NCBI GenBank assembly: GCA_017467585.1
Contig: JAFUSR010000003.1
Coordinates: 1-64,000 of the forward strand
From: Clostridia bacterium
GTDB lineage: Bacteria; Bacillota; Clostridia; Christensenellales; UBA1242
Direction: 5' to 3'
Length of the DNA stretch: 64,000 nt
The notes beneath the pieces were generated by a model. The model saw only the letters and a program-made list of their open reading frames with translations, had not been told where the DNA came from and made no database searches. The stretch's first letter is position 1, and every line of letters begins with the position of its first letter. This document shows, piece by piece, positions 15,228 through 53,992 of the stretch. The position numbers were made by a program, and so were the translations under genes.

Positions 15228-15257
15228 TTGACATTTTTCTTATGCATGGGGTATAAT
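15228..15257 (+). promoter_or_regulatory. Consensus SigmaA promoter, predicted leaderless
   Basis: TTGACA at 15228-15233, 18-nt spacer, TATAAT at 15252-15257; the ATG at 15264 begins 6 nt later, at the expected transcript start. In-frame ATGs at 15246 and upstream lie inside the promoter and cannot be used from this transcript. Confidence 0.85.
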
Positions 15258-15263
15258 CAAGGC

Positions 15264-16022
15264 ATGAAATTGGGACAAACAGAAGAGAAACAACAAGATT
15301 TTTCTTTAAAAGAAAAACCAAGTGCGGCGGAGACAAAAAAAGACTCCAATTCTTCTTTTGTTCAAAATTTAAGTGTAAACGGCGATGGTGGCGAACTTGT
15401 TGCTAGCATCAAAAAAACGCAAATTGATGCCCACGACGAGCTTGAATCTTACAAAAAACTCTTAAGAAAGCGCAAAAAAAAGCTCGCGCTTAGAATTTTG
15501 ATATTTGCAATTGTTATTATTTTACTGCCCATGTTTATTTTTATTGGTTCAATGATAATAGACAAAAATGGCAGACACGACTTTTTTGGATATACATTTT
15601 TTGCAATCGTTTCACCAAGCATGGAACCAGAAATAATGACAAACGACTGTGTTGTTTTAAAACATGTGAATTCTGCAGATGAACTTTCTGTTGGTGACGA
15701 CATTGGCTACATTGATTCAACAGGAAAGGTCATTGTTCACAGAATTATCGGAATGAACACAACAGCGTCGGGTGTTGAGTATACGACTAAGGGAATTAAC
15801 GTAGAAAACAGCGACCCAACCCCAATTAAATTCGATTCTATTGTTGGGAAAAGGGTTGCAACCTTACGAGTTCTTGGAAACGCTGTAATATTTTTTAGAT
15901 CGACGGCCGGAATAATTGTGTTTATACTTATATTCCTTTTAATTGCTGCTGGGTTTTATATTTCATTTAGACTAACTGAAAATATAACCTATATTGATGC
16001 AGCAAATCGCGAACAAAAATAA
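15264..16022 (+). CDS. SipW-type signal peptidase I
   Basis: A 252-residue membrane protease of the archaeal/ER (S26B) type. A cytosolic N-terminal region of about 75 residues, rich in Lys/Glu, leads to a membrane segment (76-98); the catalytic Ser119 lies in SPSM and the general base is His159 (VHRI) in place of Lys, as in Bacillus SipW. A second membrane segment is at about 215-240. The start is set by the promoter, so the transcript is leaderless. The gene just downstream encodes a secreted protein that may be its dedicated substrate, as for SipW and TasA (inference). Confidence 0.9.
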   Translation: MKLGQTEEKQQDFSLKEKPSAAETKKDSNSSFVQNLSVNGDGGELVASIKKTQIDAHDELESYKKLLRKRKKKLALRILIFAIVIILLPMFIFIGSMIIDKNGRHDFFGYTFFAIVSPSMEPEIMTNDCVVLKHVNSADELSVGDDIGYIDSTGKVIVHRIIGMNTTASGVEYTTKGINVENSDPTPIKFDSIVGKRVATLRVLGNAVIFFRSTAGIIVFILIFLLIAAGFYISFRLTENITYIDAANREQK

Positions 16023-16131
16023 AAAATCCGCAAAAATTTAATAAATTTAATCAAAAATTATACATTTTAAATGCAATTTTGCAATAATGTATAATTTTTA
16101 TTTTGTTGGCAACAATTTTATTGAGGTTTTT

Positions 16132-16722
16132 ATGGATAGAAAAAATGTTGCCACAACAATGATTTTAATTCTCTGCACGCTGATTTTTGCCAGTGTTGGA
16201 GCAAGCTTTATGACATATAAATATGAAAAAAATAAGATTTTGGTTGAAAATCCTAAAATCTTTGCCACCAATGTATCAGTTTGGAGCAAAGAAGATGACA
16301 CAAAATCACAAATTCAAGAACTAAAACTAAGCAGCAGTTCTCTTGGCCTTAAGCCGGTTACTGGAAAAGCAGATTCAGACACAAAAATTCCAAGCACGGT
16401 AACAAACAAAAATGGCAGTGAAGGTCTCTATGGTTCTTTTGTCGTGACCGCAGCTGCGGGGCTCACAATAAAAGTTGAAAACATCAAAATTGAAAGCTCT
16501 GAAGATGCAGAAAAAATAGAAAAACAACGAGAAAACATTTTTGTTGCAATTATGGACCAAACTGATGGCGCAAAATCACTTAAAGATGATGAAGTTATTT
16601 TAATTTCGGAGCCTCTTGCGGTGGAAGAAAAAGAATATACATTTTTATTTTGGCTAGATTCTAAGGCGGGCGAAGAACTTAAGGGTTCTAAAATATCTTT
16701 TGACTTAATCTTTGAAATTTAA
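16132..16722 (+). CDS. Secreted or membrane-anchored protein, possible signal-peptidase partner
   Basis: A 196-residue protein with an N-terminal hydrophobic segment (about 7-26) ending in GASFMT, then an exported domain of mixed beta strands with no Cys. The start is fixed by a GAGG site 6 nt before the ATG; an in-frame ATG at 16087 lies upstream of the likely transcript start (TATAAT at 16090-16095). Position after a SipW-type peptidase and size recall TasA/camelysin-type fibre proteins, but I see no firm family motif. A single-gene unit ending at a terminator. Confidence 0.7.
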   Translation: MDRKNVATTMILILCTLIFASVGASFMTYKYEKNKILVENPKIFATNVSVWSKEDDTKSQIQELKLSSSSLGLKPVTGKADSDTKIPSTVTNKNGSEGLYGSFVVTAAAGLTIKVENIKIESSEDAEKIEKQRENIFVAIMDQTDGAKSLKDDEVILISEPLAVEEKEYTFLFWLDSKAGEELKGSKISFDLIFEI

Positions 16723-16754
16723 TGCGGTTTTTTATTAAAAACACTAAAAAAATG

Positions 16755-16780
16755 CGGTTTTTAGCCGCTTTTTTTTATAA
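16755..16780 (+). terminator. Rho-independent terminator
   Basis: Stem TGCGG / CCGC around a short T-rich loop, followed by eight or more T. Confidence 0.65.
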
Positions 16781-16809
16781 ATAACCCCAAAAAAGCAAAT
16801 ACTATAACT

Positions 16810-18369
16810 ATGAAAAATGGATTATACAAGGGTGCGCTTTTATTAACTGTTTGTGCGCTGGTCGGAAAGCTTGTCGGTGCATTTTATCGAATTCCTTTTG
16901 CTATGATAGTTGGTGGCGAAGGGGTTGGCCTTTATCAACTTGTATATCCACTTTATGCGCTTATGTTAACCATAAGCACGAGTGGCCTGCCGAGTAGTAT
17001 AAGCAAACTTTTGAGTCAAAGCTATGCGGCTGGAGAGCATGGACTTGCGAAACGATATTTTAGATATTCACTTGCAATAATTATTACATTGTCTTCAATT
17101 GCTTTTGTTTTAGTTTTGTCACTGTCTGGCGTGCTAGCAGAGTGGCAGGGAAACCCTGACGCTAGTCTGTGCTACGCCGTGATAAGTCCGGCACTGGTTT
17201 TTGCAGGAGTTGTGGCAGGAATTCGTGGCTATTTTCAAGCTCAAGAAAATATGTTGCCGACTGCAATTTCTGGCCTTGTTGAGCAGATTGTTAAAGTTGC
17301 TGTAGGGCTTTTGCTTGCATTTATGTTAAAAGACTATGGAATTGTTTATGCAACAGCGGGCGCCATGCTGGGGGTGACGGCAAGCGAACTTGTTGCTAGC
17401 ATTTATATGATTATCTCTCTTAAAGTTTTTCAAAAAAAGAGGCCGACAATTCTTCTGCAAGAAAGTGAGCATTATTCGCGCAAACAAATTGTGTCTAACA
17501 TTTTGAAGATAAGCGTGCCAATAGCTTTTGGCGGTTTAATTATGCCAATCACACTTATTGTTGATAGCACACTAATTGTTAAAATTCTCTCAAGCACAAT
17601 GGACGTTTCGAGGGCAACAATGCTGTTTGGATTGCAAAGTGGTGTGGTTGGTTCACTTGTTAATTTGCCTGTGGTGGCAAGCATTGCGGTTCAGACTGTG
17701 GTTTTGCCAAGGCTGACTAGGGAAAAAACGCAAAAAAATGCAAAAGATGCGCAAAAAACAATAAAAAATGCGCTATTTTTTACGCTAATAATAACAATTC
17801 CATGCGCTTTTTGCTATTATTTTTTCTCAAACAACATAATCAATTTGTTATATAGCAAGTCATTTAATGCAGAGCAAATTGAAATTGCGAGCAGGCTTCT
17901 TAGGTTTGGAAGTTTAAACATAATAATGCTTTCGCTTGCGCAAGTAACAGCTGGAATACTTCAGGGGCTCGGAAAAGTTAAAATTCCGGTTTTTAGCATG
18001 CTTATTGCAAGCATTGTGAAAGTTATCAGCGTTTATCTGCTAGTTAACAATGCAAACATCGGAATATACGGTGCTGAAATTTCTGATGTCATTTGCTATT
18101 TGCTTGTGAGCGTGATTAATTTGTTTGTTATTCACAAAAGTGTCAAATTTAATGCGGCAAAAGAATTAATTGAGGTTGCTATTGTTTCGGTTATTGTGGC
18201 TCTCGCCAGTTATTTCAGCAAAAGTTTGCTGTCAAATGTTTTGTCAAGTTCGCTTGTGTTGCTAGTTGGTGGATCAGCAACTGTTTTAATTTATTTTGTA
18301 ACATTGACTGCAGTTATAAAATTAAATAGGCACAAAAATGCGGATGCAATAGAGGTAAATTTTAAATGA
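16810..18369 (+). CDS. SpoVB/MurJ-like polysaccharide flippase (MOP superfamily)
   Basis: A 519-residue protein with about 14 hydrophobic segments; the N-terminus (LLLTVCALVGKLVGAFYRIPFAMIVGGEGVGLYQ) and TSGLPSSISKL are typical of the SpoVB group of the MurJ/Wzx superfamily, which flips lipid-linked cell-wall or spore-cortex precursors. Length is normal. No Shine-Dalgarno site is seen; a TACTAT box ends 4 nt before the ATG, so it may be leaderless too. A role in spore cortex is inferred from the family only, and several such paralogues exist per genome. Confidence 0.88.
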   Translation: MKNGLYKGALLLTVCALVGKLVGAFYRIPFAMIVGGEGVGLYQLVYPLYALMLTISTSGLPSSISKLLSQSYAAGEHGLAKRYFRYSLAIIITLSSIAFVLVLSLSGVLAEWQGNPDASLCYAVISPALVFAGVVAGIRGYFQAQENMLPTAISGLVEQIVKVAVGLLLAFMLKDYGIVYATAGAMLGVTASELVASIYMIISLKVFQKKRPTILLQESEHYSRKQIVSNILKISVPIAFGGLIMPITLIVDSTLIVKILSSTMDVSRATMLFGLQSGVVGSLVNLPVVASIAVQTVVLPRLTREKTQKNAKDAQKTIKNALFFTLIITIPCAFCYYFFSNNIINLLYSKSFNAEQIEIASRLLRFGSLNIIMLSLAQVTAGILQGLGKVKIPVFSMLIASIVKVISVYLLVNNANIGIYGAEISDVICYLLVSVINLFVIHKSVKFNAAKELIEVAIVSVIVALASYFSKSLLSNVLSSSLVLLVGGSATVLIYFVTLTAVIKLNRHKNADAIEVNFK

Positions 18370-18432
18370 TTTCAATTTTTTTGCGGAATTATTTTATTTT
18401 TTTTGATTTATTTTTTTATTTGCTCAAAATAT

Positions 18433-18461
18433 TTGCAAAATAAGCGAAAAAATTATATAAT
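18433..18461 (+). promoter_or_regulatory. SigmaA promoter of dusB, predicted leaderless
   Basis: TTGCAA at 18433-18438, 17-nt spacer, TATAAT at 18456-18461, then TTAGCC and ATG at 18468: 6 nt between -10 and start codon, no Shine-Dalgarno. Confidence 0.85.
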
Positions 18462-18467
18462 TTAGCC

Positions 18468-19400
18468 ATGAAACCGTTTAAAATTGCTGATGTAGAAATT
18501 AAAAATAATGCCGTTCTTGCTCCAATGGCAGGCTTTTCAGATATGGCACTTCGAAAATTTGCTCACACTTACGGAGCAGGGCTGACTTACACTGAAATGG
18601 TGTCGGCCAAGGCTTTAGAATTTAACAACAAAAAGACAGAGGTTTTGCTTGAAACCGAAAGTGGAGACACTCCAGTTGCAGTTCAGCTCTTTGGTCATGA
18701 TCCTGATGTTATGGCAAAGGCATGCAGAAATCCGCTTCTTCAAAAGTTCGACATTGTTGATATTAACATGGGTTGTCCAACTCCCAAAATAACATCAAAT
18801 GGAGATGGCAGTGCACTACTTAACAATTTTGAACTTGCAGAAAAAATAATCAGGGCGTGTGTTGCGGCAACAAAAAAACCAATCACGGTTAAGTTTCGAA
18901 TTGGCAAAGATAAAAACCACATCGTTGCAGTTGAATTTGCAAAAATGTGTGAAAGAGCAGGTGCCAGTGCAATAACTGTTCATGGCAGAACAGTTGAACA
19001 GGGTTATTCAGGAGCAGTAAATTTAGACATAGTTAAAGATGTCGTAAACTCAGTATCGATTCCGGTTATTGCCAGTGGAGACTGCACAAGCCAAGAAACT
19101 TTTGAACATATTTTGTCTTACACTGGTTGTGCGGCAGTAATGATTGGAAGAGCAGCAATAGGCAGACCAGAAATTTTTGCAAATGTGCAAGGGATTAATC
19201 CAAAAATAGATAAAAAGCAACAAATTTTAGAACACGCTGCAATTTTAAGTAAATATTATCCAGAGCGTGCAGTTGTTCTCGCCATGAGGGGAATTGCACC
19301 ACAATATTTAAAGACAATTCCAAATGTCACCGACATAAAAATTGCTCTTTCAAAGATTCAGTCAATCGCCGAGTTAAAAGAGCTTTTGAAAAAATTCTAA
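18468..19400 (+). CDS. dusB: tRNA-dihydrouridine synthase (DusB-type)
   Basis: A 310-residue FMN-dependent enzyme reducing uridine in tRNA. APMAGFSD (18-25), the active-Cys motif NMGCPTPKITSNGDGSAL (Cys near 102), TVHGRT and the FMN phosphate site MIGRAAIGRP are all present. Monocistronic with a terminator. The predicted mRNA is leaderless. Confidence 0.95.
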   Translation: MKPFKIADVEIKNNAVLAPMAGFSDMALRKFAHTYGAGLTYTEMVSAKALEFNNKKTEVLLETESGDTPVAVQLFGHDPDVMAKACRNPLLQKFDIVDINMGCPTPKITSNGDGSALLNNFELAEKIIRACVAATKKPITVKFRIGKDKNHIVAVEFAKMCERAGASAITVHGRTVEQGYSGAVNLDIVKDVVNSVSIPVIASGDCTSQETFEHILSYTGCAAVMIGRAAIGRPEIFANVQGINPKIDKKQQILEHAAILSKYYPERAVVLAMRGIAPQYLKTIPNVTDIKIALSKIQSIAELKELLKKF

Positions 19401-19408
19401 AACTTAGT

Positions 19409-19440
19409 AAAAAAATCCACGTTTTGGCGTGGTTTTTCTG
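19409..19440 (+). terminator. Rho-independent terminator
   Basis: AAATCCACG, loop, CGTGGTTTTT. Confidence 0.8.
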
Positions 19441-19457
19441 TATTTACACTCATTTAT

Positions 19458-19487: not shown

Positions 19488-19495
19488 ACCCATGT

Positions 19496-23525: not shown

Positions 23526-23554
23526 TTGAAATAAAAACCAAATAGTGCTATAAT
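23526..23554 (+). promoter_or_regulatory. SigmaA promoter of trkH, predicted leaderless
   Basis: TTGAAA at 23526-23531, 17-nt spacer, TATAAT at 23549-23554, GCTTCT, ATG at 23561: 6-nt gap and no Shine-Dalgarno. Confidence 0.85.
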
Positions 23555-23560
23555 GCTTCT

Positions 23561-24934
23561 ATGAAATATAGAAAGGCTAGATTGAATGCACCACTTAAAG
23601 TAATAACAAGTTTTGTTGTTTTGATTCTTGTTGGTTCGCTCCTGTTGAGCTTGCCAATTGCATCAAAAGACGGAACTTGGCTACCTTATATCGATGCACT
23701 ATTTACAAGCACAAGCGCCGTTTGTGTAACTGGGCTGGTTGTGGTTGACACAGCTGTTCATTTTTCACTTTTTGGTCAAATTGTTATAATGCTTTTGATT
23801 CAAATAGGTGGAATCGGCTTTATTTCGCTGTCTGCATTATTTATGCTTGCAGCTGGCAAACGCCTGAGTTACAAAAACCGTGTTATGCTTCAAGAGAGTT
23901 TAAATCAAGACACATCTCAAGGCATGGTTGTTTTAATCAAAAAAATTGCCATTATTGTGTTCATTATTGAAGGAATTGGCTTCGTTTGTCTGCTTCCTAG
24001 CATGATAATTTCATATGGCTGGGGCGGAGGAGTGTTCAATGCGCTGTTTTTGTCCATCTCTGCATTCTGTAACGCTGGGTTTGATGTTCTTGGCACAGTT
24101 GGAATGGAATTTACAAACCTTGCGCCATTTGCAAAAGCCGCATATGTTTTGCTTCCTATAATGTTTTTGATTGTGCTTGGTGGAATTGGCTATGCAACAA
24201 TTGTTGAAATTGCTGGCAAGTTTAAAAAAGACAAAGCAAAAGGCTTAACCTCTCAAACAAAAATAATTTTGGGAGTAACTGGATTTTTGATTGTTGGTGG
24301 AACAATTTTGTTTGCAATTTTTGAGTGGAACAACCCACTTACAATCGGAAACATGTCGGTCTTCGACAAAATAATAAACTGCTTGTTTCAAAGCGTTGCC
24401 CCAAGAACTGCGGGCTTTTCAACGTTTAGTCAGGCAAACCTTACGTCTTCGAGCAAAGTTATAACCGACATTTTGATGTTCATCGGAGGAAGCCCTGGCT
24501 CTATTGCTGGCGGTGTTAAAACAACAACCGTGTTTGTCTTGTTTGTAGCAGCATTTAGGTCTGCAGGAGAACATGGCGACGTAATTATCAATCGCAAGAG
24601 AATTAAAAACCAAACAATTTTGAAGGCTCTTCGAATTGTTGCTCTTGCAATAATTTTAACTGCAATTGCAACAATATCTCTTTGCCTGATTGAAAAAGAT
24701 AATCCACTTGCAACATCTGGAACAATAATTTTTGAGGTCATTTCAGCAATAAGCACAGTTGGGCTTTCGCTTGGGCTAACCCCAACGCTTGCAATTTCCT
24801 CTAAAATAATTTTGATTATTTTGATGTTTGTTGGAAGAGTTGGAACAATAACAATTGCATATGCAATTCAAAAGAAATCGCCAGACGCACACGGCGAAAT
24901 AGAATATGGCGACAGTCAAATAACTGTTGGTTAA
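23561..24934 (+). CDS. TrkH/KtrB family potassium uptake channel subunit
   Basis: A 457-residue membrane protein with four pseudo-repeats of M1-P-M2. Selectivity-loop sequences are visible: TSTSAVCVTGL (about 47-57), SISAFCNAGFD, SVAPRTAGFSTF and SAISTVGLSLGL. The size (about 457) fits KtrB of Gram-positives. The downstream RCK protein, 10 nt away, is its regulatory partner. Predicted leaderless mRNA. Confidence 0.93.
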   Translation: MKYRKARLNAPLKVITSFVVLILVGSLLLSLPIASKDGTWLPYIDALFTSTSAVCVTGLVVVDTAVHFSLFGQIVIMLLIQIGGIGFISLSALFMLAAGKRLSYKNRVMLQESLNQDTSQGMVVLIKKIAIIVFIIEGIGFVCLLPSMIISYGWGGGVFNALFLSISAFCNAGFDVLGTVGMEFTNLAPFAKAAYVLLPIMFLIVLGGIGYATIVEIAGKFKKDKAKGLTSQTKIILGVTGFLIVGGTILFAIFEWNNPLTIGNMSVFDKIINCLFQSVAPRTAGFSTFSQANLTSSSKVITDILMFIGGSPGSIAGGVKTTTVFVLFVAAFRSAGEHGDVIINRKRIKNQTILKALRIVALAIILTAIATISLCLIEKDNPLATSGTIIFEVISAISTVGLSLGLTPTLAISSKIILIILMFVGRVGTITIAYAIQKKSPDAHGEIEYGDSQITVG

Positions 24935-25784: not shown

Positions 25785-25812
25785 AACGCAGAAAATTTGT
25801 GACGCATATATT
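25783..25812 (+). promoter_or_regulatory. SigmaA-like promoter of murC, predicted leaderless
   Basis: TTAACG at 25783-25788, 18-nt spacer, TATATT at 25807-25812, ATTAGC, ATG at 25819: 6-nt gap and no Shine-Dalgarno. The -35 begins in the T tract of the preceding terminator. Confidence 0.65.
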
Positions 25813-25818: not shown

Positions 25819-27159
25819 ATGAAACATATTCACATTATTGGCATTGGTGGCATATCGCTGAGCGGACTTGCCACAATTTTAATAAACAAAGGTTATGTTG
25901 TGAGCGGCTCAGATGCTCACAAAAGCGACCTTACACAAAAACTTGAAAAACTGGGCGCAAAAATATTTGTGGGGCACTCTGCGACCAATGTTGACGGCGC
26001 AGAACTTGTGGTGCGTTCGGCCGCCATAAAAGATGATAATCCCGAAATTGTTGAGGCACAAAGGCAAGGAATAAAAATTATCGACAGGGCAGAGCTTTTA
26101 GGGCAAATTGCAAGCGAATATCAAACTGTCATTTCGGTTGCGGGCACTCACGGAAAAACCACCACAACAGGCATGCTCGCAAGCATTTTTATTGCAGCAA
26201 ACAAAAACCCAACCGTGCATATTGGCGGAGAACTTCCGATAATTGGCGGAAATGTTTTCATTGGCGGCAAAAAATATTTCATAACCGAGGCCTGCGAATA
26301 TTATGACAGCTTTTTGAAACTTTCTAGCGATTATGGAGTTATCACAAACATCCAAAAAGACCATTTAGATTATTTCAAAAATTTAGATAATTTGCAAAAA
26401 TCGTTTGAAAAATTTGCAAAAAATACAAAATACAACGGTTTGTGCGTAACTAATTTAGATGATGAAAATTGCGCAAAAATAAAAACTAAAAACATGATTA
26501 AATTTTCAGTTTTGTCAAATGCGGACTACTGTGCAACTAACATAACAGAGCAAGACCAAAATTATTCATTTAATGTTGTTGAGTTTGGCAAAAATCTTGG
26601 TAGAATCAGTTTGAGTGTTCCTGGCATTCACAATGTTTCAAACGCAATGGCGGCAATCGCTGTTGCAAGACAAGAATGCATCGAATTTGAAACAATAAAA
26701 AATGCGCTTGAAACTTTTTGTCAAAGCAAGCGCAGATATCAACAACTCACTCACCAAAGCGGTGCGGTTGTTGTTCATGACTATGCTCATCATCCAACAG
26801 AAATTGCGGCAACTCTTGCCGTTGCAAGGGCAAGAACAAGGGGCAAATTGATTGTTGTTTTTGAACCACACACATTTTCACGAACACAATATTTGTGGAA
26901 AGAGTTTTGCGAGTGTTTTGTTGGCGCTGACCAAGTTATTTTTGCTCCAATTTATCCAGCCAGAGAAGAGCCAATAAACGGCGTAACAAGCAAGAACTTG
27001 GCGGTGGCGGTTTCTGAAAGTGGACAAAATGCTATTGCCGCTGAGTCGTTAGATCAAGCGCACGACATGCTTTTGCCATATCTTCAAAAAGATAACACAA
27101 TTTTGCTTCTCGGTGCAGGCACAATCGTTAATCTTGCACAAAAGTTCGGCATAGATTAA
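25819..27159 (+). CDS. murC: UDP-N-acetylmuramate-L-alanine ligase
   Basis: A 446-residue Mur ligase adding L-Ala to UDP-MurNAc. The N-terminal Rossmann GIGGISLSGLA, the ATP loop GTHGKTTTTGM (about 110-120) and HDYAHHPTEIAATL in the C-terminal domain are all there. Length is normal. It stands alone, about 3 kb from murB. Confidence 0.97.
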   Translation: MKHIHIIGIGGISLSGLATILINKGYVVSGSDAHKSDLTQKLEKLGAKIFVGHSATNVDGAELVVRSAAIKDDNPEIVEAQRQGIKIIDRAELLGQIASEYQTVISVAGTHGKTTTTGMLASIFIAANKNPTVHIGGELPIIGGNVFIGGKKYFITEACEYYDSFLKLSSDYGVITNIQKDHLDYFKNLDNLQKSFEKFAKNTKYNGLCVTNLDDENCAKIKTKNMIKFSVLSNADYCATNITEQDQNYSFNVVEFGKNLGRISLSVPGIHNVSNAMAAIAVARQECIEFETIKNALETFCQSKRRYQQLTHQSGAVVVHDYAHHPTEIAATLAVARARTRGKLIVVFEPHTFSRTQYLWKEFCECFVGADQVIFAPIYPAREEPINGVTSKNLAVAVSESGQNAIAAESLDQAHDMLLPYLQKDNTILLLGAGTIVNLAQKFGID

Positions 27160-27197: not shown

Positions 27198-27206
27198 TGT
27201 TATAAT
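27198..27206 (+). promoter_or_regulatory. Extended -10 promoter of uvrC, predicted leaderless
   Basis: TG-T-TATAAT (27198-27206), then TAACAC and ATG at 27213. No good -35 box, so recognition would rely on the TGn extension. No Shine-Dalgarno. Confidence 0.75.
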
Positions 27207-27212: not shown

Positions 27213-29042
27213 ATGAATATTCTTGAATTAAGAGAAAAAGTTAAATTGCTTCCAGCAAAACCAGGGTGCTACATAATGAAAAATGAGAGTGGCACTGTCA
27301 TTTATGTTGGAAAGGCAAAAAAGCTTAGAAACCGCGTTAAAAGTTACTTTGACAATTCATCAAAAACACAAAAGACTTATGCTCTTGTTAAAAACATTGT
27401 CGACTTTGAATATATTATCACACCAAGCGAGCTTGACGCTTTTAGTTTAGAGAACAACCTAATCAAAAAATATAAGCCAAAATATAACATTTTGCTTAAA
27501 GACGACAAGTCTTTTCCATACATCAAAATTGACATGGCTGAAAAATTTCCACGAATTCAAATTGTGAGAAGGCCTAAAAAAGATGGCAGCATGTTATTTG
27601 GACCATATGTCACCGGTGTTCCAATTTCAGAACTGATGAACATAATCAAGTCTGCCTTTCCAGTCAGGTGGTGCAACAAAGACTTTTCAAAAGCCAAATT
27701 TCCATGCAAAGCGTGTTTGCATGGCGAACTAGGGCAGTGCATGGCGCCATGTGCCGACGAGTCAAGAGAAAAAGAATATAAAAAAGTGGTTTTAAAGGTT
27801 GTTGATTTTTTAAACGGCGACACAAAACAAGTTAGGGCAAACTTAACCGCAAAAATGAATGCCTATGCAAAAACAGAAAACTTTGAAGAGGCCTTAAAAT
27901 GTCGCAATCACCTGGAGATGATAGATAGGCTAGAAGGCAAAATTATAACCAGCCTCACCACAAGCAAAAATATTGACGTGTTTGCATATTACGACAGTCA
28001 AACAAGCGGACTGTCTGCAATAAATGCAATGACCATCAGAGCCGGTCAAACCATTGGCGAAACCAACTATATTCAAGAAGATGTGGTGGGAAGCACAGAA
28101 GAAATTTTAACCAGCTTTTTGGTTGAATATTATCGAGGAATTGAGAATTTGCCAAACGAAATTGTTTGCAAACAGCTAACCGAAGAGAGTGCCGAACTGA
28201 TTAGTTTATATTTCTTGAACACCTATCAAAAGGTTGTCAAGGTAACAATTCCGCAAAAGGCCATTAAAAATGAACTTTTTGAGCAGGCGTATGCCAACGC
28301 AAAAGAATATTGCGAGCGCTCATCAGACAGCTTTGCGAGAAAACAAAAACTCACAAGCGGTGCGCTTGAGTCGCTAGCCAAACTTTTGGGGCTAAACAGT
28401 GTTTATCGAATTGAAGGTTACGACATTTCGGACATCAGCGGAACAAACAATGTGGCTAGCATGGTGGTTTTTGAGGGTGGCGAACCAAACAAAAAATTAT
28501 ATCGAAAATTTAAAATAAAAACCGTTGAAGGGGCCAACGACTTTGCCTGCATGAAAGAGGCTCTTTCGCGCAGACTTTCTCGCCTTGCCTCCGGCGACAC
28601 AGAATTTGGAGAAAAGCCAGACGTCATTTTGATTGATGGCGGCCTAGGGCAACTTAACAGCGTAAAAGACTTGGCCAGCCAAATGGGGCTAAACATTACC
28701 TTTATTAGCCTGGCAAAACAAGATGAAGAAATCTACACAACAACTTCAAATGCTCCAATTCGCTTGCCACGCACAGACTATGCTCTAAGGCTTTTGCAAC
28801 GTGTTCGTGATGAGAGCCACAGATTTGCAGTTCTCTATCACCGAAATGTTCGCGGAAACACAGAACTTGCTAGCCAACTTGCAGAAATTGAAGGGGTGGG
28901 CAAGCATCGTCAACAAATTTTGTATAAGCACTTCAAAACAATAGACGCCATTGCTGATGCTTCGGTTGAAGAACTTGCCAAAGTTGAAGGAATTGGCGCT
29001 AAAAATGCAATAAACATCTACAATTATTTTCATAAAAATTAA
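27213..29042 (+). CDS. uvrC: Excinuclease ABC subunit C
   Basis: A 609-residue nuclease that makes both cuts in nucleotide excision repair. GIY-YIG domain at the start (PGCYIMK...VIYVGKAKKLRNR), a Cys-rich stretch (CKACLHGELGQCMAPC, about 168-183), UVR motif (about 200-235), the RNase H-like UvrC domain with GYDISDISGT, and C-terminal helix-hairpin-helix. Full length. The predicted mRNA is leaderless. Confidence 0.97.
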   Translation: MNILELREKVKLLPAKPGCYIMKNESGTVIYVGKAKKLRNRVKSYFDNSSKTQKTYALVKNIVDFEYIITPSELDAFSLENNLIKKYKPKYNILLKDDKSFPYIKIDMAEKFPRIQIVRRPKKDGSMLFGPYVTGVPISELMNIIKSAFPVRWCNKDFSKAKFPCKACLHGELGQCMAPCADESREKEYKKVVLKVVDFLNGDTKQVRANLTAKMNAYAKTENFEEALKCRNHLEMIDRLEGKIITSLTTSKNIDVFAYYDSQTSGLSAINAMTIRAGQTIGETNYIQEDVVGSTEEILTSFLVEYYRGIENLPNEIVCKQLTEESAELISLYFLNTYQKVVKVTIPQKAIKNELFEQAYANAKEYCERSSDSFARKQKLTSGALESLAKLLGLNSVYRIEGYDISDISGTNNVASMVVFEGGEPNKKLYRKFKIKTVEGANDFACMKEALSRRLSRLASGDTEFGEKPDVILIDGGLGQLNSVKDLASQMGLNITFISLAKQDEEIYTTTSNAPIRLPRTDYALRLLQRVRDESHRFAVLYHRNVRGNTELASQLAEIEGVGKHRQQILYKHFKTIDAIADASVEELAKVEGIGAKNAINIYNYFHKN

Positions 29043-29067: not shown

Positions 29068-29093
29068 TATTTGATCGCAGGCTCAAATATATT
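29064..29093 (+). promoter_or_regulatory. SigmaA-like promoter, predicted leaderless
   Basis: TTCATA at 29064-29069, 18-nt spacer, TATATT at 29088-29093, TTTATT, ATG at 29100: again a 6-nt gap and no Shine-Dalgarno. Confidence 0.6.
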
Positions 29094-29099: not shown

Positions 29100-30164
29100 A
29101 TGAAAAAAACAATCGACAAAAAGAAAATCAGCAAAATTTTTATAAAAATTGCCATTTCTGTTTTGGTGTGTGCTCTTGCCATGGTTGTTCCAACTGCCAT
29201 AATTTCAATCAAAGCTCCAATAGAAGAAAAGTTCAGCCCCAAAAGTGATTATCAAGGAGTTGTTGAAGTTTGGAATATCGACACATTTGAGGGTGGCAGC
29301 GCAAGCAAAACGAGCTTTCTTTCTGCCACAGCGCTAAGTTTTCAAAACTCAAATAAGGGCACTTATTTGCTCATAAAAAACATGACTCCAAGCGAATGTG
29401 CTTTGGCACTAGAACAAGGGCAACACCCACAGCTTTTTAGCTTTGGTTCAGCATTTGCAAATGCGTTAAAAAACGAGCTTGCTGAGGTCTCTGCAAATGA
29501 GTCAGTCTGCGTGCAAATTGCAAATAGTGCCACCATTGACCAAAAAACTTATGCAATTGGCTATGCAAAGAGTGCCTATGTTTTAATTTCACTCCAAGAA
29601 AATCTTGCTGACAGCCAGTCTTCAATCAGCTCGCAGGCCTTTGTTTGCGGAAACAAAAAACAACTAAGAAATGGCAAGGAAAAAATAACTTATTCTCTTG
29701 TGTTTGGCGGTGCTAGCACAAGTCCAAGCGTGGCATTTGAAAACAAGTTTTATCTACTTGTGGCTGGCGAAACAACTTTCGACAAAACCGATTTTAGCAA
29801 GACAAGTTATCAGGCATATTGCGACTTTGTTGAAGGAAAATCAAAGATTTTGCTTGGCACAATTCGCGATGTTTTTAGAGTTAAAAATAGAGAAAATCAG
29901 GGCAAACTTTCAAACGTGGTTTATGAGCCAGTGGGTGAGTGTGCAGACCTTGTTCAATATTTTGGAATAGACAAAACCGCAACCGAAAAACAAAAACTGG
30001 TGTGTGAAAAGTTTATCAATTTTGTTTTGAGTGAACCAATTCAACAAAAGTTAAACGAAGTTGGCTTGCTTTCGGCAAGGGATGGGTTAAAACTTTACGA
30101 CACAGGCGTTATGAGCGACATAGAGCGTTCAGTTGTGGGAGCGCAAATTAGTTCAATATTTTGA
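29100..30164 (+). CDS. Membrane-anchored protein resembling extracellular solute-binding proteins
   Basis: A 354-residue protein with a basic N-terminus, a membrane anchor (about 17-37, no lipobox Cys) and an extracytoplasmic domain. VEVWNIDTFEGGSASKTSFL (about 51-70) and the C-terminal CEKFINFVLSEPIQQKLNEVGLLSARDG resemble family 1 (sugar-type) binding proteins. No permease or ATPase genes are next to it, so it may not serve transport; it is upstream of murB and overlaps its start (TGATG), hinting at a cell-surface role. Function not known. Confidence 0.7.
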   Translation: MKKTIDKKKISKIFIKIAISVLVCALAMVVPTAIISIKAPIEEKFSPKSDYQGVVEVWNIDTFEGGSASKTSFLSATALSFQNSNKGTYLLIKNMTPSECALALEQGQHPQLFSFGSAFANALKNELAEVSANESVCVQIANSATIDQKTYAIGYAKSAYVLISLQENLADSQSSISSQAFVCGNKKQLRNGKEKITYSLVFGGASTSPSVAFENKFYLLVAGETTFDKTDFSKTSYQAYCDFVEGKSKILLGTIRDVFRVKNRENQGKLSNVVYEPVGECADLVQYFGIDKTATEKQKLVCEKFINFVLSEPIQQKLNEVGLLSARDGLKLYDTGVMSDIERSVVGAQISSIF

Positions 30165-46675: not shown

Positions 46676-46705
46676 TTGACTTTTTGAGTCTCGGTGTGAT
46701 AGTTT
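46676..46705 (+). promoter_or_regulatory. Extended -10 promoter of holB, predicted leaderless
   Basis: TTGACT at 46676-46681, 18-nt spacer ending in TGA, TAGTTT at 46700-46705, TTTGTT, ATG at 46712: 6-nt gap and no Shine-Dalgarno. Confidence 0.65.
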
Positions 46706-46711: not shown

Positions 46712-47659
46712 ATGGACTATAGCAATTTTGTAAAAACAAATCGACAATATAATCTCTTGCTTGAACAGTTCTCTGCCGGCAAGATGAACCATGTTTGCCT
46801 GCTTAAAAGTCCAGACTCAAACTTTTCAAAAGAGATTGTGCTGTCTCTTGCTGCAAAAATTGTGGATTGCCCACTTGCTCAAGTTCAAAAAAAAATTCAC
46901 CCAGACGTTTTTGTTTATGGCGAGGACGGAAAAATTGATGTGTCTTGTGCTGGAGAAATAATAGACAGCTTGCTTACTCGTCCTTATTCTGCCAAACACA
47001 AAGTCTATTGCTTGCTCGGGATTGAAAACATGAACGAAGCCAGCCAAAACAAACTCTTGAAAAGTTTAGAAGAGCCACCAAAAGACGTAATCTTTTTGCT
47101 TACAACTGCAAACACAAAAAAGGTTTTATCAACAATTTTGAGTCGTGCAGTATCTATCGAATTAGACAACCTTTCAAGTGAACAAATTTTAGAGCTTTTA
47201 ACAAGTGGCGGGGCCACCAAACAAGCGGCTGAAATTGCCGTAAGTTGCTGTGGCAACAACAGCACACTTGCTCAAAAATTAACAAGTGAACAATTTGTAA
47301 GCCTTTATAACTTAACACTTGAAATGTTAGAGAGCGTAAATGGCAGTAGAGATTGCTTAAAATATGTCAGTCTGCTAGATTCAAAGCAGTTTTCAAAAAC
47401 AGACATTTTAGACGTTTGCACACTTTTTGTCAGAGATGTCGCAATGATAAATGCTGGCGAGAGAAAACTTGTGATAAATTCTCACCATATAGACAATTTA
47501 TCAAGAATTGCAGCCTGCATGAATCTCGTTGCCGCAGGAAACATACTTTCAAAGATTAACCAACTAAAACAAAATCTATTTTTTAACGCAAACGCGTCGG
47601 CAGTGTTAGATAATTTAATCTTGACAATTGCTGAGGAGAAAACTAAATGCAGAAAATAA
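46712..47659 (+). CDS. holB: DNA polymerase III delta-prime subunit
   Basis: A 315-residue clamp-loader subunit. GRIRTS-like P-loop is absent; ENMNEASQNKLLKSLEEPP (about 106-124) and TTANTKKVLSTILSRA (sensor/SRC-like) are the delta-prime hallmarks. First gene of an operon with ricT, a ferredoxin, a methyltransferase and a membrane protein; the holB-yaaT-yabB order is the usual Firmicutes one. Overlaps ricT by 13 nt. Confidence 0.93.
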   Translation: MDYSNFVKTNRQYNLLLEQFSAGKMNHVCLLKSPDSNFSKEIVLSLAAKIVDCPLAQVQKKIHPDVFVYGEDGKIDVSCAGEIIDSLLTRPYSAKHKVYCLLGIENMNEASQNKLLKSLEEPPKDVIFLLTTANTKKVLSTILSRAVSIELDNLSSEQILELLTSGGATKQAAEIAVSCCGNNSTLAQKLTSEQFVSLYNLTLEMLESVNGSRDCLKYVSLLDSKQFSKTDILDVCTLFVRDVAMINAGERKLVINSHHIDNLSRIAACMNLVAAGNILSKINQLKQNLFFNANASAVLDNLILTIAEEKTKCRK

Positions 47660-49322: not shown

Positions 49323-50112
49323 AGGAATTGAACAATTTAAAAATGTTAGCCCAGTGGTTCAATGGGCAATCTTTATTGTTGGCGCACTTATTGCTGTTGT
49401 TGCAGCATTTTCGCTGTGTGTGTCAATTTATCTCATGATAAAATACATAAAATTTAACAGAAGACAAAACAGCATCAAAAAATCTGGTGGAGAAGTTGCC
49501 AGAACGCTTCTAGACAAAAATGGACTTAAAAACATCAAGGTTTCTACTTGGGGTTCATTTCTTTTTGGAAACAGCTATTCACACTATTTTCATAAGGTTC
49601 GTTTAAGAAGGCTCACAAAAGATAAAGACAGTGTAACCTCACTTGCCATGGCTGCTCAAAAAACATCACTTGCAGTTATGGATAAACAGGGCGATCCAGA
49701 CATGAAGGCTCGTGTTAGAATGACACCATTCATTTATTTTGGACCAGCCATGTTTATTCCTATTGTTGCAGTTGGTATTGCCATTGACTTTATACTTTAT
49801 AATTTCACTGGTGTTGCAACAATAATTAGTGCTGCAGTTGGATTGCTTTTGTATGTAATTTCGTTTGTAATGTCAATCAAGGTTTTAGTAACCGAAAAGA
49901 AGGCTCAAAAAATGGCAGTTGAAATGCTCAAAAAAGAAAATATGGCAACTGGCGAAGAACTTGACATGATGGACGAACTCTTTCGACTTTATAACATTGA
50001 ATACATAAACGACATAATCTTGGCGTTCTTAGAAATGGTTTTAAGAGTGCTCAGCATCATCGCCAATGTTCAAAATGGAAATATGCAGGTTGGTAACAAC
50101 TCAAACAACTAA
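49309..50112 (+). CDS. YugP-like membrane protein without the zinc-peptidase motif
   Basis: A 267-residue membrane protein that aligns in order with the YugP/Zn_peptidase_2 family: GEVARTLLDKNGLKNIKV (61-78), SHYFHKVRLRRLTKDKDSVTSLAMAAQ (by key residues HY, LRL, SV, AA), then membrane segments (about 140-160, 170-190). In the family the stretch AAHEAGHA supplies the zinc site; here it reads AAQKTSLA (115-122), with both His and the Glu gone. So likely a pseudoprotease. AAAGGAGA before the ATG, overlapping the methyltransferase by 14 nt. Confidence 0.7.
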   Translation: MPLFEGIEQFKNVSPVVQWAIFIVGALIAVVAAFSLCVSIYLMIKYIKFNRRQNSIKKSGGEVARTLLDKNGLKNIKVSTWGSFLFGNSYSHYFHKVRLRRLTKDKDSVTSLAMAAQKTSLAVMDKQGDPDMKARVRMTPFIYFGPAMFIPIVAVGIAIDFILYNFTGVATIISAAVGLLLYVISFVMSIKVLVTEKKAQKMAVEMLKKENMATGEELDMMDELFRLYNIEYINDIILAFLEMVLRVLSIIANVQNGNMQVGNNSNN

Positions 50113-50121
50113 CAAAGCAAA

Positions 50122-50152
50122 CAAAAACCGCTATTTTTGGCGGTTTTTTTTG
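50122..50152. terminator. Bidirectional Rho-independent terminator
   Basis: AAAAACCGC / GCGGTTTTT stem between the convergent YugP-like gene and spmB. Confidence 0.85.
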
Positions 50153-50154
50153 TG

Positions 50155-50661
50155 CTAGATTATTCTGCAAACAAGGCAGGCAATAACGCTGCCAACAAAT
50201 GTGGCAAGCAGGCAAACGGGAATGGTGTAGCGCAGTTTCTTTATTTTTGTTGTTGAAAAATAGATTGCCACAATATAAAATGTGGTTTCTGAACAACTCA
50301 TAATAACGCACGCACACTTAGAAACAAAACTATCAACCCCAAAAGTGGAGAAAATTTCACTCAAATATGCCAAACTTCCCGAGCCCGAAAATGGGCGCAA
50401 GACCATAAACTCAGCAAGTTCGGCGGGCATTCCAAAAAATTGCAAAATTGGAGCAAACAACTTAGATAATTCTCCGGCGAGCCCACTCAGTTTAAACAGT
50501 TCAACCGCAACAAAAATTGCGCAGAGATAGGGAAAAGTATTGATGCAAAGATTAACGCTTTCTTTTGCGCCACCAGCAAAGGCTTCATAGGCGTTAATGT
50601 TTTTTGCATAGGCATAGATAAGAAGCACAAACAAAAATATGGGAACAATATAGTTAGCCAT
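50155..50661 (-). CDS. spmB: Spore maturation protein B
   Basis: A 168-residue membrane protein of the nucleoside-recognition (Gate) class with the SpmB signature MVLRPFSGSGSLAYL (about 87-101) and SCSETTFYIVAIYF. Together with SpmA it is involved in spore core dehydration in Bacillus. The start overlaps the end of spmA by 8 nt. Confidence 0.95.
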   Translation of the reverse strand: MANYIVPIFLFVLLIYAYAKNINAYEAFAGGAKESVNLCINTFPYLCAIFVAVELFKLSGLAGELSKLFAPILQFFGMPAELAEFMVLRPFSGSGSLAYLSEIFSTFGVDSFVSKCACVIMSCSETTFYIVAIYFSTTKIKKLRYTIPVCLLATFVGSVIACLVCRII

Positions 50662-51253
50662 TTTTCTTTTTCCTAAATTTTATTTTTTTGTCAAAAAAGT
50701 TAAAGAGTTTCACAAACAAAACACCAACAACTGTGCTGATAAGTCCGGCAACAATGCTCGGAATAATAATGGCCGAAGGATTTGTGCTTCCCGCCGACGA
50801 GAGCATTCCCACAATTGTTCCCGGAAAAAGTTGAAGGCTGGTGCAACAGAGCACAATTAGCATAATCATGGGATAGGTCGCCTTGCCGGTTTTGTTGTCT
50901 TTGTTCATAGCCTCAATTGCCTTAATTCCAAGAGGGGTGGCGGCCCCATTCATGCCCAAAATGTTGGCGCTCATGTTCATAGAAACATAGTTTCTGCTTT
51001 CGTCAGAAAGAGTGTTTTTGCCAAAGATAAGAGTAATTATTGGCGACAAAACTTTTTCTATCCACTTGCTTAATTTGGTTTGATGGAGTATATTGAATAT
51101 GCCTGTCCAAATGGCATAGATGGCCATAAGTTCAAAGCAGAGTTTAACTGCCTTGTGACCAGCAGAAGAAAGGCCAAGCAAAACACCCATTGGGTTAGAT
51201 ATTGACAGGGCAACCAAACTAGACAGAATCAAAATTATCCAAAGTTTATTCAT
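50654..51253 (-). CDS. spmA: Spore maturation protein A
   Basis: A 199-residue membrane protein: WTGIFNILHQTKLSKWIEKVLSPII, NMSANILGMNGAATPLGIKAIEAM (by key residues) are SpmA hallmarks. Operon spmA-spmB. No ribosome binding site, and a possible SigmaE-like promoter ends 6 nt before the ATG. Confidence 0.95.
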   Translation of the reverse strand: MNKLWIILILSSLVALSISNPMGVLLGLSSAGHKAVKLCFELMAIYAIWTGIFNILHQTKLSKWIEKVLSPIITLIFGKNTLSDESRNYVSMNMSANILGMNGAATPLGIKAIEAMNKDNKTGKATYPMIMLIVLCCTSLQLFPGTIVGMLSSAGSTNPSAIIIPSIVAGLISTVVGVLFVKLFNFFDKKIKFRKKKNG

Positions 51254-51259
51254 CTATAT

Positions 51260-51289
51260 AATTTATGAGGGAACAATAATCATTATGAT
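51260..51289 (-). promoter_or_regulatory. Possible SigmaE-like sporulation promoter of spmAB
   Basis: On the minus strand ATCATAAT (51289-51282), 14 nt, CATAAATT (51267-51260), close to SigmaE boxes (KMATATT / CATAnAnT). The ATG follows after 6 nt. A SigmaA-type TATAAT for tatD lies on the other strand at 51257-51262, so the region is ambiguous. Confidence 0.4.
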
Positions 51290-52043
51290 AGACGCACACG
51301 CACATTTGCTCAATGAAAAATTTAATGCCAGCGACATTATTTCTTCAATGAGGGACGACAGACTAGACAAAATTGTTAACATTGGCACAGATGTTGCCGA
51401 CAGCAGACAGGGCATAGTTCTTGCAAAAAACAACAAAAATGTTTTTTGCACAGTTGGAATTCACCCAGAATATGCTGACAACACCACTGACGCCGATGTT
51501 GCAATTATTGATGAGTTGGCTTCTAGCAAAAAAGTTGTTGCAATTGGAGAAATCGGCCTAGATTATCACTTTGGAGCAACTGAAGAACAAAAGCAAAAAC
51601 AAAAAGAGCTCTTTGTTCGCCAAATAAAAATTGCAAGTCGCCACAACCTTCCAATTGTCATTCACTGCAGAGACGCAGCCGATGACGTTCTTGAAATTTT
51701 AAAAGAACACAGGCATTTGCTCTTGCGTGTTGTTATGCACTGCTACAGTGAGGGTGGAGCATACATGCCAAAATTCCGCGAACTAGATTGTTATTTTAGT
51801 TTTACTGGAAACATAACATTTAAAAAGGTTGATAGAACATTTTTGAAAGATATTCCACAAAACCGAATTATGGTCGAAACCGATGCTCCATGGCTAAGTC
51901 CTGAGCCACTTAGGGGAACAACTAACTATCCAAAAAATGTTTGGCTCACCGCCCAAAAAATTGCCGACACTCTTGAAATGTCTTTAGAAAAGTTCGACAC
52001 ACTTTCTTCAGACAACACAAAGACATTTTATAACTTGCCATAA
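51285..52043 (+). CDS. tatD: TatD family metal-dependent hydrolase/DNase
   Basis: A 252-residue TIM-barrel nuclease with DAHAHL (3-8), GIHPEYA, GEIGLDYH (metal Glu), PIVIHCRDA, HCYSEGG and ETDAPWLSPEPLRG. All metal ligands are kept. Divergent from spmA with a 31-nt gap; a GAGGG site is 13 nt from the ATG, rather far. Confidence 0.95.
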   Translation: MIDAHAHLLNEKFNASDIISSMRDDRLDKIVNIGTDVADSRQGIVLAKNNKNVFCTVGIHPEYADNTTDADVAIIDELASSKKVVAIGEIGLDYHFGATEEQKQKQKELFVRQIKIASRHNLPIVIHCRDAADDVLEILKEHRHLLLRVVMHCYSEGGAYMPKFRELDCYFSFTGNITFKKVDRTFLKDIPQNRIMVETDAPWLSPEPLRGTTNYPKNVWLTAQKIADTLEMSLEKFDTLSSDNTKTFYNLP

Positions 52044-52063
52044 CACAAGCAAAAAAATGCAAC

Positions 52064-52096
52064 AAAAAAACACGTCGATTCGGCGTGTTTTTTTGT
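52064..52096. terminator. Bidirectional Rho-independent terminator
   Basis: AAAACACG / CGTGTTTT stem with long A and T runs between convergent genes. Confidence 0.85.
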
Positions 52097-52097
52097 T

Positions 52098-53066
52098 TTA
52101 ATTATATTTATAAAATCCTTCACCAGAAGCCTTTCCAAGTTTGCCAGCGTTTACATATTTATCTAACACACGAAGCATTCCATCAAAATTATATGGCATC
52201 ATCATCTTTTTCAGAAGAGGGTCAAACAAGTTAGGAACTTTTTGATATTGCAAAACAATGTTTTTTGCAGTAACAAGACCAACAGTGTCTAAAATTTGAA
52301 ATGGCCCGTGGGGTGCGCCTGTTCCAAGAGTCCATGCTTTGTCGATTGTTTCAGGATCTGCAACGCCATTAGCAACAAGGTCCATAGCACAGAGCAAAAA
52401 TGGAACAAGCATTGAGTTTAACAGATATCCCGCTTTTTCTTCTCTAGCCTCTAGAGGTATCATTCTAATTGCGTCTGCAAATTTAACAACTCTGTCAAAA
52501 TTGTCAGCGGCAGTTTTGTCGTGCCCCATAATTTCTGCAATGTTGTTTTTCCAAATAACATTTGCAAAGTGCATGGCTAAAAACTTTTCTGGCCTGCCTG
52601 TTGCCTTTGCCATTTTAGAAGGCAAAATTGTTGAAGAGTTTGTAACAACAATGGTTTTGTCAGCAAGCAGTGGGGCAATTTGTTTATAAAATGCATTTTT
52701 AATGTCTAGGTTTTCTGTTATTGATTCAATAACAAGGTCTGCATTGGCAAGCGCAATAGGTTGTTCATTAATTATTTTAATATTTTTTGCTGCCAAGTTA
52801 ACCCTTTTTAAACATGCTTCTTTGTTAAAGCCCTTTGCGTCTGAAATTCCACGAGCCCAAGATGCGTCATTTGGCTTTTTGGGATTCATCTCGTCAATAG
52901 TCTTTTCATAAGATTTTTGCAAGTTTTTAATTTTTTTCTTTACATCAGCTTCGGAATCTTCTTTTCTGATTAAAATTGTAACATCAAAACCACAATAGGC
53001 ACTTTGAAAAGCAATTTGACTTCCGAGAATTCCACCGCCGCATACAACAATTTTTTTAAATTCCAT
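52098..53066 (-). CDS. 3-hydroxyacyl-CoA dehydrogenase
   Basis: A 322-residue NAD-dependent enzyme. The NAD site is CGGGILGSQIA (9-19), the catalytic region LAMHFANVIWKNNIAEI (His near residue 160) and the substrate-gating ... GYLLNSMLVPFL are visible. Slightly longer than the 282-residue clostridial Hbd, with an insert near 45-75. It stands alone here, not in a butyrate operon. GGAGA before the ATG. Confidence 0.9.
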   Translation of the reverse strand: MEFKKIVVCGGGILGSQIAFQSAYCGFDVTILIRKEDSEADVKKKIKNLQKSYEKTIDEMNPKKPNDASWARGISDAKGFNKEACLKRVNLAAKNIKIINEQPIALANADLVIESITENLDIKNAFYKQIAPLLADKTIVVTNSSTILPSKMAKATGRPEKFLAMHFANVIWKNNIAEIMGHDKTAADNFDRVVKFADAIRMIPLEAREEKAGYLLNSMLVPFLLCAMDLVANGVADPETIDKAWTLGTGAPHGPFQILDTVGLVTAKNIVLQYQKVPNLFDPLLKKMMMPYNFDGMLRVLDKYVNAGKLGKASGEGFYKYN

Positions 53067-53155
53067 ATGATTTTCTCCGTTTAAATTTACATTTATATAT
53101 TAAATTATTTTTTTAAAAAAGTCTATGAATTTGAGTGCGTTTTAATATTATTTGC

Positions 53156-53185
53156 TTGAAAAAGTGATTTTTTGTGTGCTACACT
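53156..53185 (+). promoter_or_regulatory. SigmaA promoter of rsmA, predicted leaderless
   Basis: TTGAAA at 53156-53161, 18-nt spacer ending in TGC, TACACT at 53180-53185, AAATTT, ATG at 53192: 6-nt gap and no Shine-Dalgarno. Confidence 0.8.
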
Positions 53186-53191
53186 AAATTT

Positions 53192-53992
53192 ATGAAAATT
53201 GAATTTAAGAAAAAATTTGGTCAAAACTTTTTGACCGACACAAACCTGCTTGCCGCAATTGCAAAAGACAGCGAAATTGACAGTCAAACAACAGTTGTTG
53301 AAGTTGGCCCTGGCGCTGGCGCACTCACACGCGAGCTTGCAAAAGTTTCTAAGTGTGTTTATGCGTTTGAAATTGACACCGATTTAAAAGAAATTTTAGA
53401 TGAAAATTTAAAAGGATATAATAATGTAAAAGTTGTCTTTCGTGACTTTTTGAAGATGCCAAACGAAGACTTAAAAGCTGTTGCCGGAACGGGTTTTGCC
53501 GTTGTTGCAAACTTGCCATACTATATCACCAGTCCGCTAATCACCAAGTTTTTGACTTGTGGGCTAGAGCCAAAGAGTTTAACTGTTATGGTTCAAAAAG
53601 AGGTTGGAGAGCGAATTGTTGCAAAGCCTGCAACAAAAGATTATGGCGTTTTGTCGGTTATGGTTCAGCTTTGTGGAATTCCTGAAATAAAAAGGTTTGT
53701 CGGAAGGCAAATGTTCACGCCTGCACCAAACGTAGATAGTTGCATTGTTCATTTGAGCTCTATTAAAACTCCAAAAAACTACGAAAGAATTGTTGAATTT
53801 GTTAAGGGATGTTTTGCTTCAAGACGAAAGACACTTTCAAACAATTTGTCAAAAATGTTCGAAAAAGACGATGTTGCCGACGTTCTTGCTGAGGCAGAAA
53901 TAGATCCAAGTGTCAGGGCAGAAACACTTTCTGCAAAAGAGTTTGAAAAGCTTTTTCAATTATTTGATAAAATCTGTCAAAATCGCTTATAA
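53192..53992 (+). CDS. rsmA: 16S rRNA dimethyladenosine transferase (KsgA)
   Basis: A 266-residue enzyme that dimethylates two adenines near the 3' end of 16S rRNA. KKFGQNFLTD (family start), SAM site VEVGPGAGALTREL, and NLPYYITSP (catalytic) are intact. Start set at 53192; the in-frame upstream ATG at 53174 lies within the promoter. Confidence 0.97.
   Translation: MKIEFKKKFGQNFLTDTNLLAAIAKDSEIDSQTTVVEVGPGAGALTRELAKVSKCVYAFEIDTDLKEILDENLKGYNNVKVVFRDFLKMPNEDLKAVAGTGFAVVANLPYYITSPLITKFLTCGLEPKSLTVMVQKEVGERIVAKPATKDYGVLSVMVQLCGIPEIKRFVGRQMFTPAPNVDSCIVHLSSIKTPKNYERIVEFVKGCFASRRKTLSNNLSKMFEKDDVADVLAEAEIDPSVRAETLSAKEFEKLFQLFDKICQNRL

Follow-up and report, generated by a model that had tools for sequence, protein, structure and literature searches.

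Candidate leaderless genes with a fixed six-nucleotide spacing between −10 box and ATG in an uncultured Clostridia bacterium and its relatives

The DNA considered here, called the window below, is a 64,000-nucleotide (nt) stretch (positions 1 to 64,000, forward strand) of contig JAFUSR010000003.1 from a Clostridia bacterium of the family UBA1242, order Christensenellales (GenBank assembly GCA_017467585.1). Eight of its genes, listed with their promoters in Table 1, start at an ATG preceded by a −10 hexamer that ends exactly 6 nt upstream, and an earlier note had proposed them as a set of leaderless genes whose transcripts begin at the start codon itself. All eight ATGs and 6-nt gaps are present in the sequence: the hexamer is TATAAT in four genes, TATATT in two, TACACT in one, and TAGTTT in one. 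As had also been claimed, five of the genes (15264, 18468, 23561, 46712, and 53192) have good −35 boxes at 17 or 18 nt; uvrC (27213) carries the extended −10 TGTTATAAT in place of a −35 box. No Shine-Dalgarno (SD) site was found at any of the eight starts (six by scan; 46712 and 53192 by eye), and at six of the eight genes no in-frame start codon lies between the upstream stop codon and the ATG, while alternative in-frame starts exist upstream of 15264 and 53192. Of the longer-leader genes named for comparison, secG and greA do show TATAAT 21 and 23 nt upstream plus GGAGG. Here we report that the 6-nt spacing recurs as a discrete class across this genome and that it is conserved at uvrC among relatives.

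Table 1. Genes with a −10 hexamer 6 nt before the ATG, and the promoter elements preceding them
Feature	Coordinates	Strand	Description
Promoter of the 15264 gene	15228..15257	+	TTGACA-18-TATAAT (6/6), ends 6 nt before ATG
Signal peptidase I, SipW-like; leaderless candidate	15264..16022	+	No SD
Promoter of dusB	18433..18461	+	TTGCAA-17-TATAAT (6/6), 6-nt gap
dusB, tRNA dihydrouridine synthase B; predicted leaderless	18468..19400	+	
Promoter of trkH	23526..23554	+	TTGAAA-17-TATAAT (6/6), TG extended, 6-nt gap
TrkH-type potassium uptake protein; leaderless candidate	23561..24934	+	
CATATATT box, 6 nt before the murC ATG	25805..25812	+	Hexamer TATATT (5/6); CATATAT-type rather than TATAAT
murC; leaderless candidate, possibly other promoter type	25819..27159	+	Box kept in several family orthologues
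uvrC extended −10 TGTTATAAT	27198..27206	+	TATAAT (6/6), 6-nt gap; conserved in relatives
uvrC; predicted leaderless, best-supported case	27213..29042	+	
AATATATT box, 6 nt before the ATG of the 29100 gene	29086..29093	+	Hexamer TATATT (5/6); CATATAT in several orthologues
354-amino-acid protein; leaderless candidate	29100..30164	+	No Pfam/NCBIfam match at the cut-offs used
Promoter of holB	46676..46705	+	TTGACT-18-TAGTTT (3/6), −10 weak alone
holB-like, DNA polymerase III delta'; leaderless candidate	46712..47659	+	
Promoter of ksgA	53156..53185	+	TTGAAA-18-TACACT (4/6), 6-nt gap
ksgA/rsmA; leaderless candidate	53192..53992	+	Arrangement specific to this genome among those examined

The spacing was counted in a 464-kb sample consisting of the window and 400 kb of contig 2 of the same genome (G000; 973,583 bases in 4 contigs, 93% complete), with 335 predicted genes. 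The gap is the number of nt between the end of the −10 hexamer and the start codon; an exact site is TATAAT, a relaxed site has five or more matches to it (≥5/6), and the promoter score adds −35 and TG terms to the −10 term, with thresholds of 9 or 8. Exact hexamers at candidate ATG starts occur 11 times at gap 6, 3 times at gap 7, and never at gaps 8 to 16, and a broad leadered class extends from gap 17 upward. The 11 of 335 genes at gap 6 compare with 3 in total across 14 background gaps (p 3e-11), and the 20 relaxed sites at gap 6 with a mean of 3.9 (p 7e-8). Before GTG and TTG candidate starts in the sample, the number of exact gap-6 sites is 0 and 0. Sigma-A promoter features, either a TTGACA-like −35 at 16 to 19 nt or a TG-extended −10, occur at gap-6 sites, and promoters scoring at least 9 fall 1, 12, and 3 times at gaps 5, 6, and 7 on contig 2 (1 at gaps 8 to 14) and 1, 4, and 1 times in the window (0 at gaps 8 to 14), making 22 against 1 for the whole sample. 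Promoters thus lie at gaps 5 to 7 or far upstream with few between, so that leaders in this genome would be either about zero or long enough to hold an SD site. Gaps 8 to 16 are nearly empty of promoters, as if leaders of ~2 to 10 nt were avoided.

The same peak appears when no gene calls are used. A mechanical count of TATAAT-to-ATG distances in the sample gives 24 at gap 6, 15 at gap 7, and 6 to 12 at any of the remaining gaps between 0 and 16. In the whole genome TATAAT-6-ATG occurs 41 times and the reversed pattern 3 times; a TTG −35 at 17 to 19 nt accompanies 16 of the 41 sites and none of the reversed ones. Per Mb, the density of these TTG-bearing sites is the highest among the 199 genomes listed, the next being G230 with 8 in 1.2 Mb. 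At a score of 8, 24 of the 335 genes (~7%, about one in fourteen) are leaderless candidates, beside 75 genes with leadered promoters scoring 9 or more. The suggestion of a second, genome-wide mode of initiation is borne out to this extent, as a minority mode.

Ordinary SD-led initiation exists alongside it. Of the 335 predicted starts, 42% are preceded by a match of at least 5 letters to the SD sequence, compared with 2% of the 1982 internal ATGs; for at least 4 letters the shares are 60% and 14%. No 16S match was found in the source assembly; in relatives, whose 16S was used instead, all 11 loci reaching the 3' end carry GGATCACCTCCTT (a twelfth locus is a fragment), a normal anti-SD. Among 30 leaderless candidates with a relaxed site at gaps 5 to 7, 29 have no SD site.

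The excess of 6-nt gaps that the earlier note had proposed to look for beyond the window was found in this genome and also in a congeneric one (G002; 360 kb with 283 genes, the uvrC contig excluded), where exact sites number 9 at gap 6, 3 at gap 7, and 11 at gaps 8 to 16 together, and relaxed sites 19 at gap 6 versus a mean of 5.7 at gaps 8 to 16 (p 4e-5). In more distant relatives the excess is real but smaller. Across 35 genomes of the family, our own counted, there are 1655 gap-6 sites versus 1260.5 per gap at gaps 9 to 14 (reversed, 695 versus 877.5), with 13 genomes individually significant at p < 0.01; across 24 other genomes of the order there are 845 versus 708 (reversed, 464 versus 520), with 5 individually significant. 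Twenty control stretches (297 genes) taken from genomes elsewhere in the phylum had no site at gap 6, exact or relaxed, and no promoter scoring 9 at gaps 0 to 12. We did not accept a histogram pooled over the family as evidence that relatives have many leaderless genes, as its count at gap 6 fell from 12 to 2 after genes with a UvrC-like motif were dropped. In order stretches without uvrC, gap 6 had 4 sites, but gap 10 had 3.

Conservation was followed gene by gene under two rules, the source genome's own locus being counted for uvrC and dusB: a lax rule, in which the start may be picked to suit the box, and a blind rule, in which it is chosen without regard to the −10. The clearest case is uvrC, with a −10 at gap 5 to 7 in 22 of 30 genomes by the lax rule and a relaxed site at gap 6 in 18 of 30 with blind starts. 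Its upstream DNA is otherwise divergent, and among the columns with the strongest conservation are T-G-T-G at −17 to −14 (with the TG at −15/−14), TATAAT at −12 to −7, and the position just ahead of the ATG. A tree was built from 110 UvrC proteins (30 from the genome set and 80 named, including one identical pair), and a fully supported branch divides it in two: the leaderless state, defined as a relaxed site at gap 5 to 7 with blind starts, is found in 47 of the 79 members of one part and in 0 of the 31 members of the second. The state requires 18 changes versus a shuffled mean of 36, so that it comes and goes. The leaderless side includes Candidatus Coproplasma, Scatosoma, Caccalectryoclostridium, and two metagenome-assembled genomes (MAGs) called Christensenellaceae; among these named members the layout is found at uvrC only in Caccalectryoclostridium and one Christensenellaceae MAG. 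The other side holds Lachnospiraceae, Halanaerobium, and others, together with Candidatus Pullichristensenella and the same-order genome G055, so that the trait may be confined to a part of the order. An arrangement conserved across such deep divergence argues for selection at uvrC.

Three further genes show the arrangement in some of the relatives, which supports a function for it there as well. The dusB orthologues have it in 16 of 30 loci by the lax rule and, at gap 6, in 9 of 30 with blind starts. For uvrB, blind starts give 6, 3, and 5 sites at gaps 6, 7, and 8 (14 sites in 30 loci), and an SD site is visible by eye in several others of the same 30, so that this gene seems to switch its mode of initiation. 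The lax rule flags holB at gap 6 to 7 in 13 of 30 family loci, several with GTG starts, and in two relatives TTGACA-17/18-TAnnnT-6-ATG is kept (by eye), which supports the weak hexamer at 46712. Six holB orthologues (L314, L315, L321, L322, L332, and L335) have TAAAAT or TACAAT 6 nt before a GTG and are apparent leaderless GTG genes.

Two rival explanations were weighed first. In DNA that is ~63% A+T (GC content 0.37 for the source DNA), −10-like boxes might stand 6 nt before an ATG by chance and the eight have been picked out by the reader, a view to which the two hexamers matching TATAAT at 3 to 4 of 6 positions lend some support. For the set as a whole we reject it as extremely improbable, since the spacing is singled out among gaps with and without gene calls, the reversed pattern is rare, and the uvrC conservation speaks against chance as well; individual cases, 46712 or 53192 for instance, could still be due to chance. 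The phylum controls alone would not settle the matter because they are mostly GC-richer. Alternatively, the promoters could be real and the ATG not the start, translation proceeding from an SD-led codon further downstream. Such a codon, in frame and with an SD match of at least 5 letters, does occur within the next ~60 codons in 4 of the 30 candidates (window positions 58663 and 54046, and two in contig 2). We nevertheless hold this to be very unlikely, given that 26 of the 30 have no such start in that range, that the first invariant residue of UvrC is at position 14 and leaves little room for a later start, and that the exact hexamers at gap 6 stand before ATG to the exclusion of GTG and TTG.

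A different alternative leaves the class in place and divides it: a sigma-A leaderless class, and, sharing its spacing, a CATATAT box at murC and the 29100 gene that belongs to a sporulation-sigma (sigma-E/K-like) promoter or is a regulator site. CATAnnnT is the −10 of sigma-E/K. Several family orthologues of both genes have CATATAT ~6 nt before their start codon (ATG or GTG), and in some of them a TCATATT- or AC-like element lies ~13 to 17 nt further up (by eye). The 0.97-Mb genome carries on contig 2 six sigma-70-family genes (L199 to L204), apparently sigma A, F, G, E, K, and H; two small genes precede the sigma-F-like gene as in spoIIA, and a spoIIGA-sized gene precedes the sigma-E-like one. 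Sporulation genes were unexpectedly found in the reduced genomes of gut bacteria of family UBA1242, Christensenellales (PMC12306168). The ~1-Mb genomes of the family studied here, their sporulation sigma set, and the clade-mates called Christensenellaceae agree with that placement. Set against this, the cases are few (5 CATA sites at gap 6 among 251 family genes), the murC orthologue at L169 and some others have no box, and TATATT also fits sigma-A at 5/6. The division is quite possible, though we lean somewhat away from it; taken together, these features suggest that promoters of more than one sigma factor may share the zero-leader layout. The eight genes form a mixed set, with murC and the 29100 gene seemingly using a CATATAT-type box at a similar spacing and with ksgA having a layout that relatives do not share. 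The protein encoded at 29100-30164 sits between uvrC and murB and is 37 to 45% identical to its counterparts in two congeneric genomes.

We consider it highly probable, from the arrangement and its conservation, that the eight-gene set reflects promoters placed for leaderless initiation at a 5'-terminal AUG, a minority mode beside SD-led initiation that is held by selection at particular genes. RNA polymerase would start on the A of the ATG, its predicted position being 7 nt past the end of the −10; such an mRNA would have neither a leader nor an SD site, and the ribosome would initiate at its 5'-terminal AUG, in the manner of known leaderless mRNAs. Selection would maintain the layout at particular genes, uvrC foremost, in a large, uncultured clade of gut Clostridia (probably Christensenellales).

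Several results weigh against this reading. The gene calls come from a simple caller of our own. The missing SD sites are partly forced, as a −10 at −12 to −7 occupies the SD position, and the few candidates with a downstream SD-led start also belong here. A pyrimidine at −1 is present at 20 of 20 gap-6 sites versus 93 of 161 SD-led starts, yet also at 19 of 22 decoy gaps; it is not specific, and we dropped it as evidence for that reason. In the congeneric genome gaps 14 and 16 have 4 exact sites each, with no empty zone there. Among relatives, 22 of the 35 family genomes and 19 of the 24 order genomes show no individually significant excess, and 20 family stretches around uvrC contain, once uvrC is removed, 2 gap-6 sites, not above neighboring gaps. 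The layout at ksgA was found in 1 of 30 genomes, the window itself, and with blind starts in 0 of 27. The phylum controls are a weak comparison, their GC content ranging from 0.33 to 0.59 with just 5 of 20 stretches (81 genes) up to 0.42; they have 3 relaxed sites at gap 7, and the AT-rich subset has 2 at gap 7 and 0 at gap 6.

Among the leaderless candidates of the sample are uvrB, uvrC, ogg, an AlkD-like gene, recD2, folD, lgt, dusB, trkH, and an ABC exporter, and the leadered genes include secA, secG, pgk, greA, dnaB, and those for ribosomal proteins S20 and L9. There is a hint, and only a hint, that DNA-repair genes are over-represented among the former: 5 of 24 leaderless versus 2 of 72 leadered genes (Fisher p 0.010, post hoc; p 0.011 with 70 leadered), 3 further leadered genes cut by the stretch border being excluded from the 72. 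One of the two leadered repair genes is uvrA; it lies directly downstream of uvrB, and the promoter assigned to it may be spurious. A broader and more speculative scheme, which we think unlikely to hold in all its parts, would make leaderless initiation an old trait of the clade, lost and regained gene by gene, kept chiefly at repair genes (uvrB, uvrC, ogg, AlkD-like, and recD2), and served by sigma-A and sporulation-sigma-like promoters; in these tiny-genome symbionts, which would have retained sporulation sigma factors, repair and envelope genes might thereby stay translatable when ordinary initiation falls, for example, in dormancy or outgrowth.

The preferred reading would add a large, uncultured clade to the known users of leaderless initiation, and would do so within the Clostridia, of which the mapped species found in the literature use it little. 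The annotation of start codons in these gut MAGs would be affected, because start callers that rely on SD sites have nothing to go by at such genes. It would also provide natural gene pairs, such as uvrB, SD-led in some relatives and leaderless in others, for asking why the mode switches.

Leaderless transcription beside SD-led genes was predicted in 21.6% of 4,769 bacterial genomes in a GeneMarkS-2 survey quoted in PMC9581028, and a survey of 953 bacterial genomes (PMC3160421) reported leaderless genes in 56 of 209 Firmicutes, at a mean of 4.2%. The spacing class described here resembles the TA-like signal of the latter survey, TAtAAT immediately upstream of the start codon in low-GC Firmicutes; the Firmicutes cases there are concentrated in Lactobacillales and Mycoplasma, and its main text does not contain the string "clostridi." Actinobacteria and Deinococcus-Thermus likewise have mixed genomes in which a −10 box directly precedes the start codon, but there the share is ~20% and 40% of genes with TAnnnT boxes, compared with ~7% and mostly TATAAT-like boxes here (PMC3160421). 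In Streptococcus pneumoniae D39, 70 of 768 operons are leaderless, a ribosome-binding site (RBS) is present at 69% of coding sequences, and a reporter was translated efficiently without one (PMC6212727). That species belongs to the Bacilli and its leaderless genes were proven by 5'-end sequencing, whereas our candidates belong to a Clostridia lineage and are predicted from sequence.

Within the Clostridia, mapping identified 15 potentially leaderless genes in Clostridioides difficile (PMC7438776), about 2 to 3% in three solventogenic clostridia (PMC9045289), and 4% of transcription start sites (TSSs) in Clostridium phytofermentans, generally with another upstream TSS and an RBS (PMC5171806). 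For mapped Clostridia these reports agree with the earlier note, which called the mode uncommon in Firmicutes, a statement that does not extend to S. pneumoniae (PMC6212727) or to Lactobacillales and Mycoplasma (PMC3160421). No paper combining "leaderless" with "Christensenellales" came up in a full-text search of open-licence PMC articles. Other bacteria are already known to have leaderless genes; what is new is the lineage, and what is unusual is the conservation at uvrC. In the mapped members of the same NCBI class leaderless transcripts are few and rare, whereas the genome analyzed here has a discrete 6-nt class, without SD sites and conserved at uvrC.

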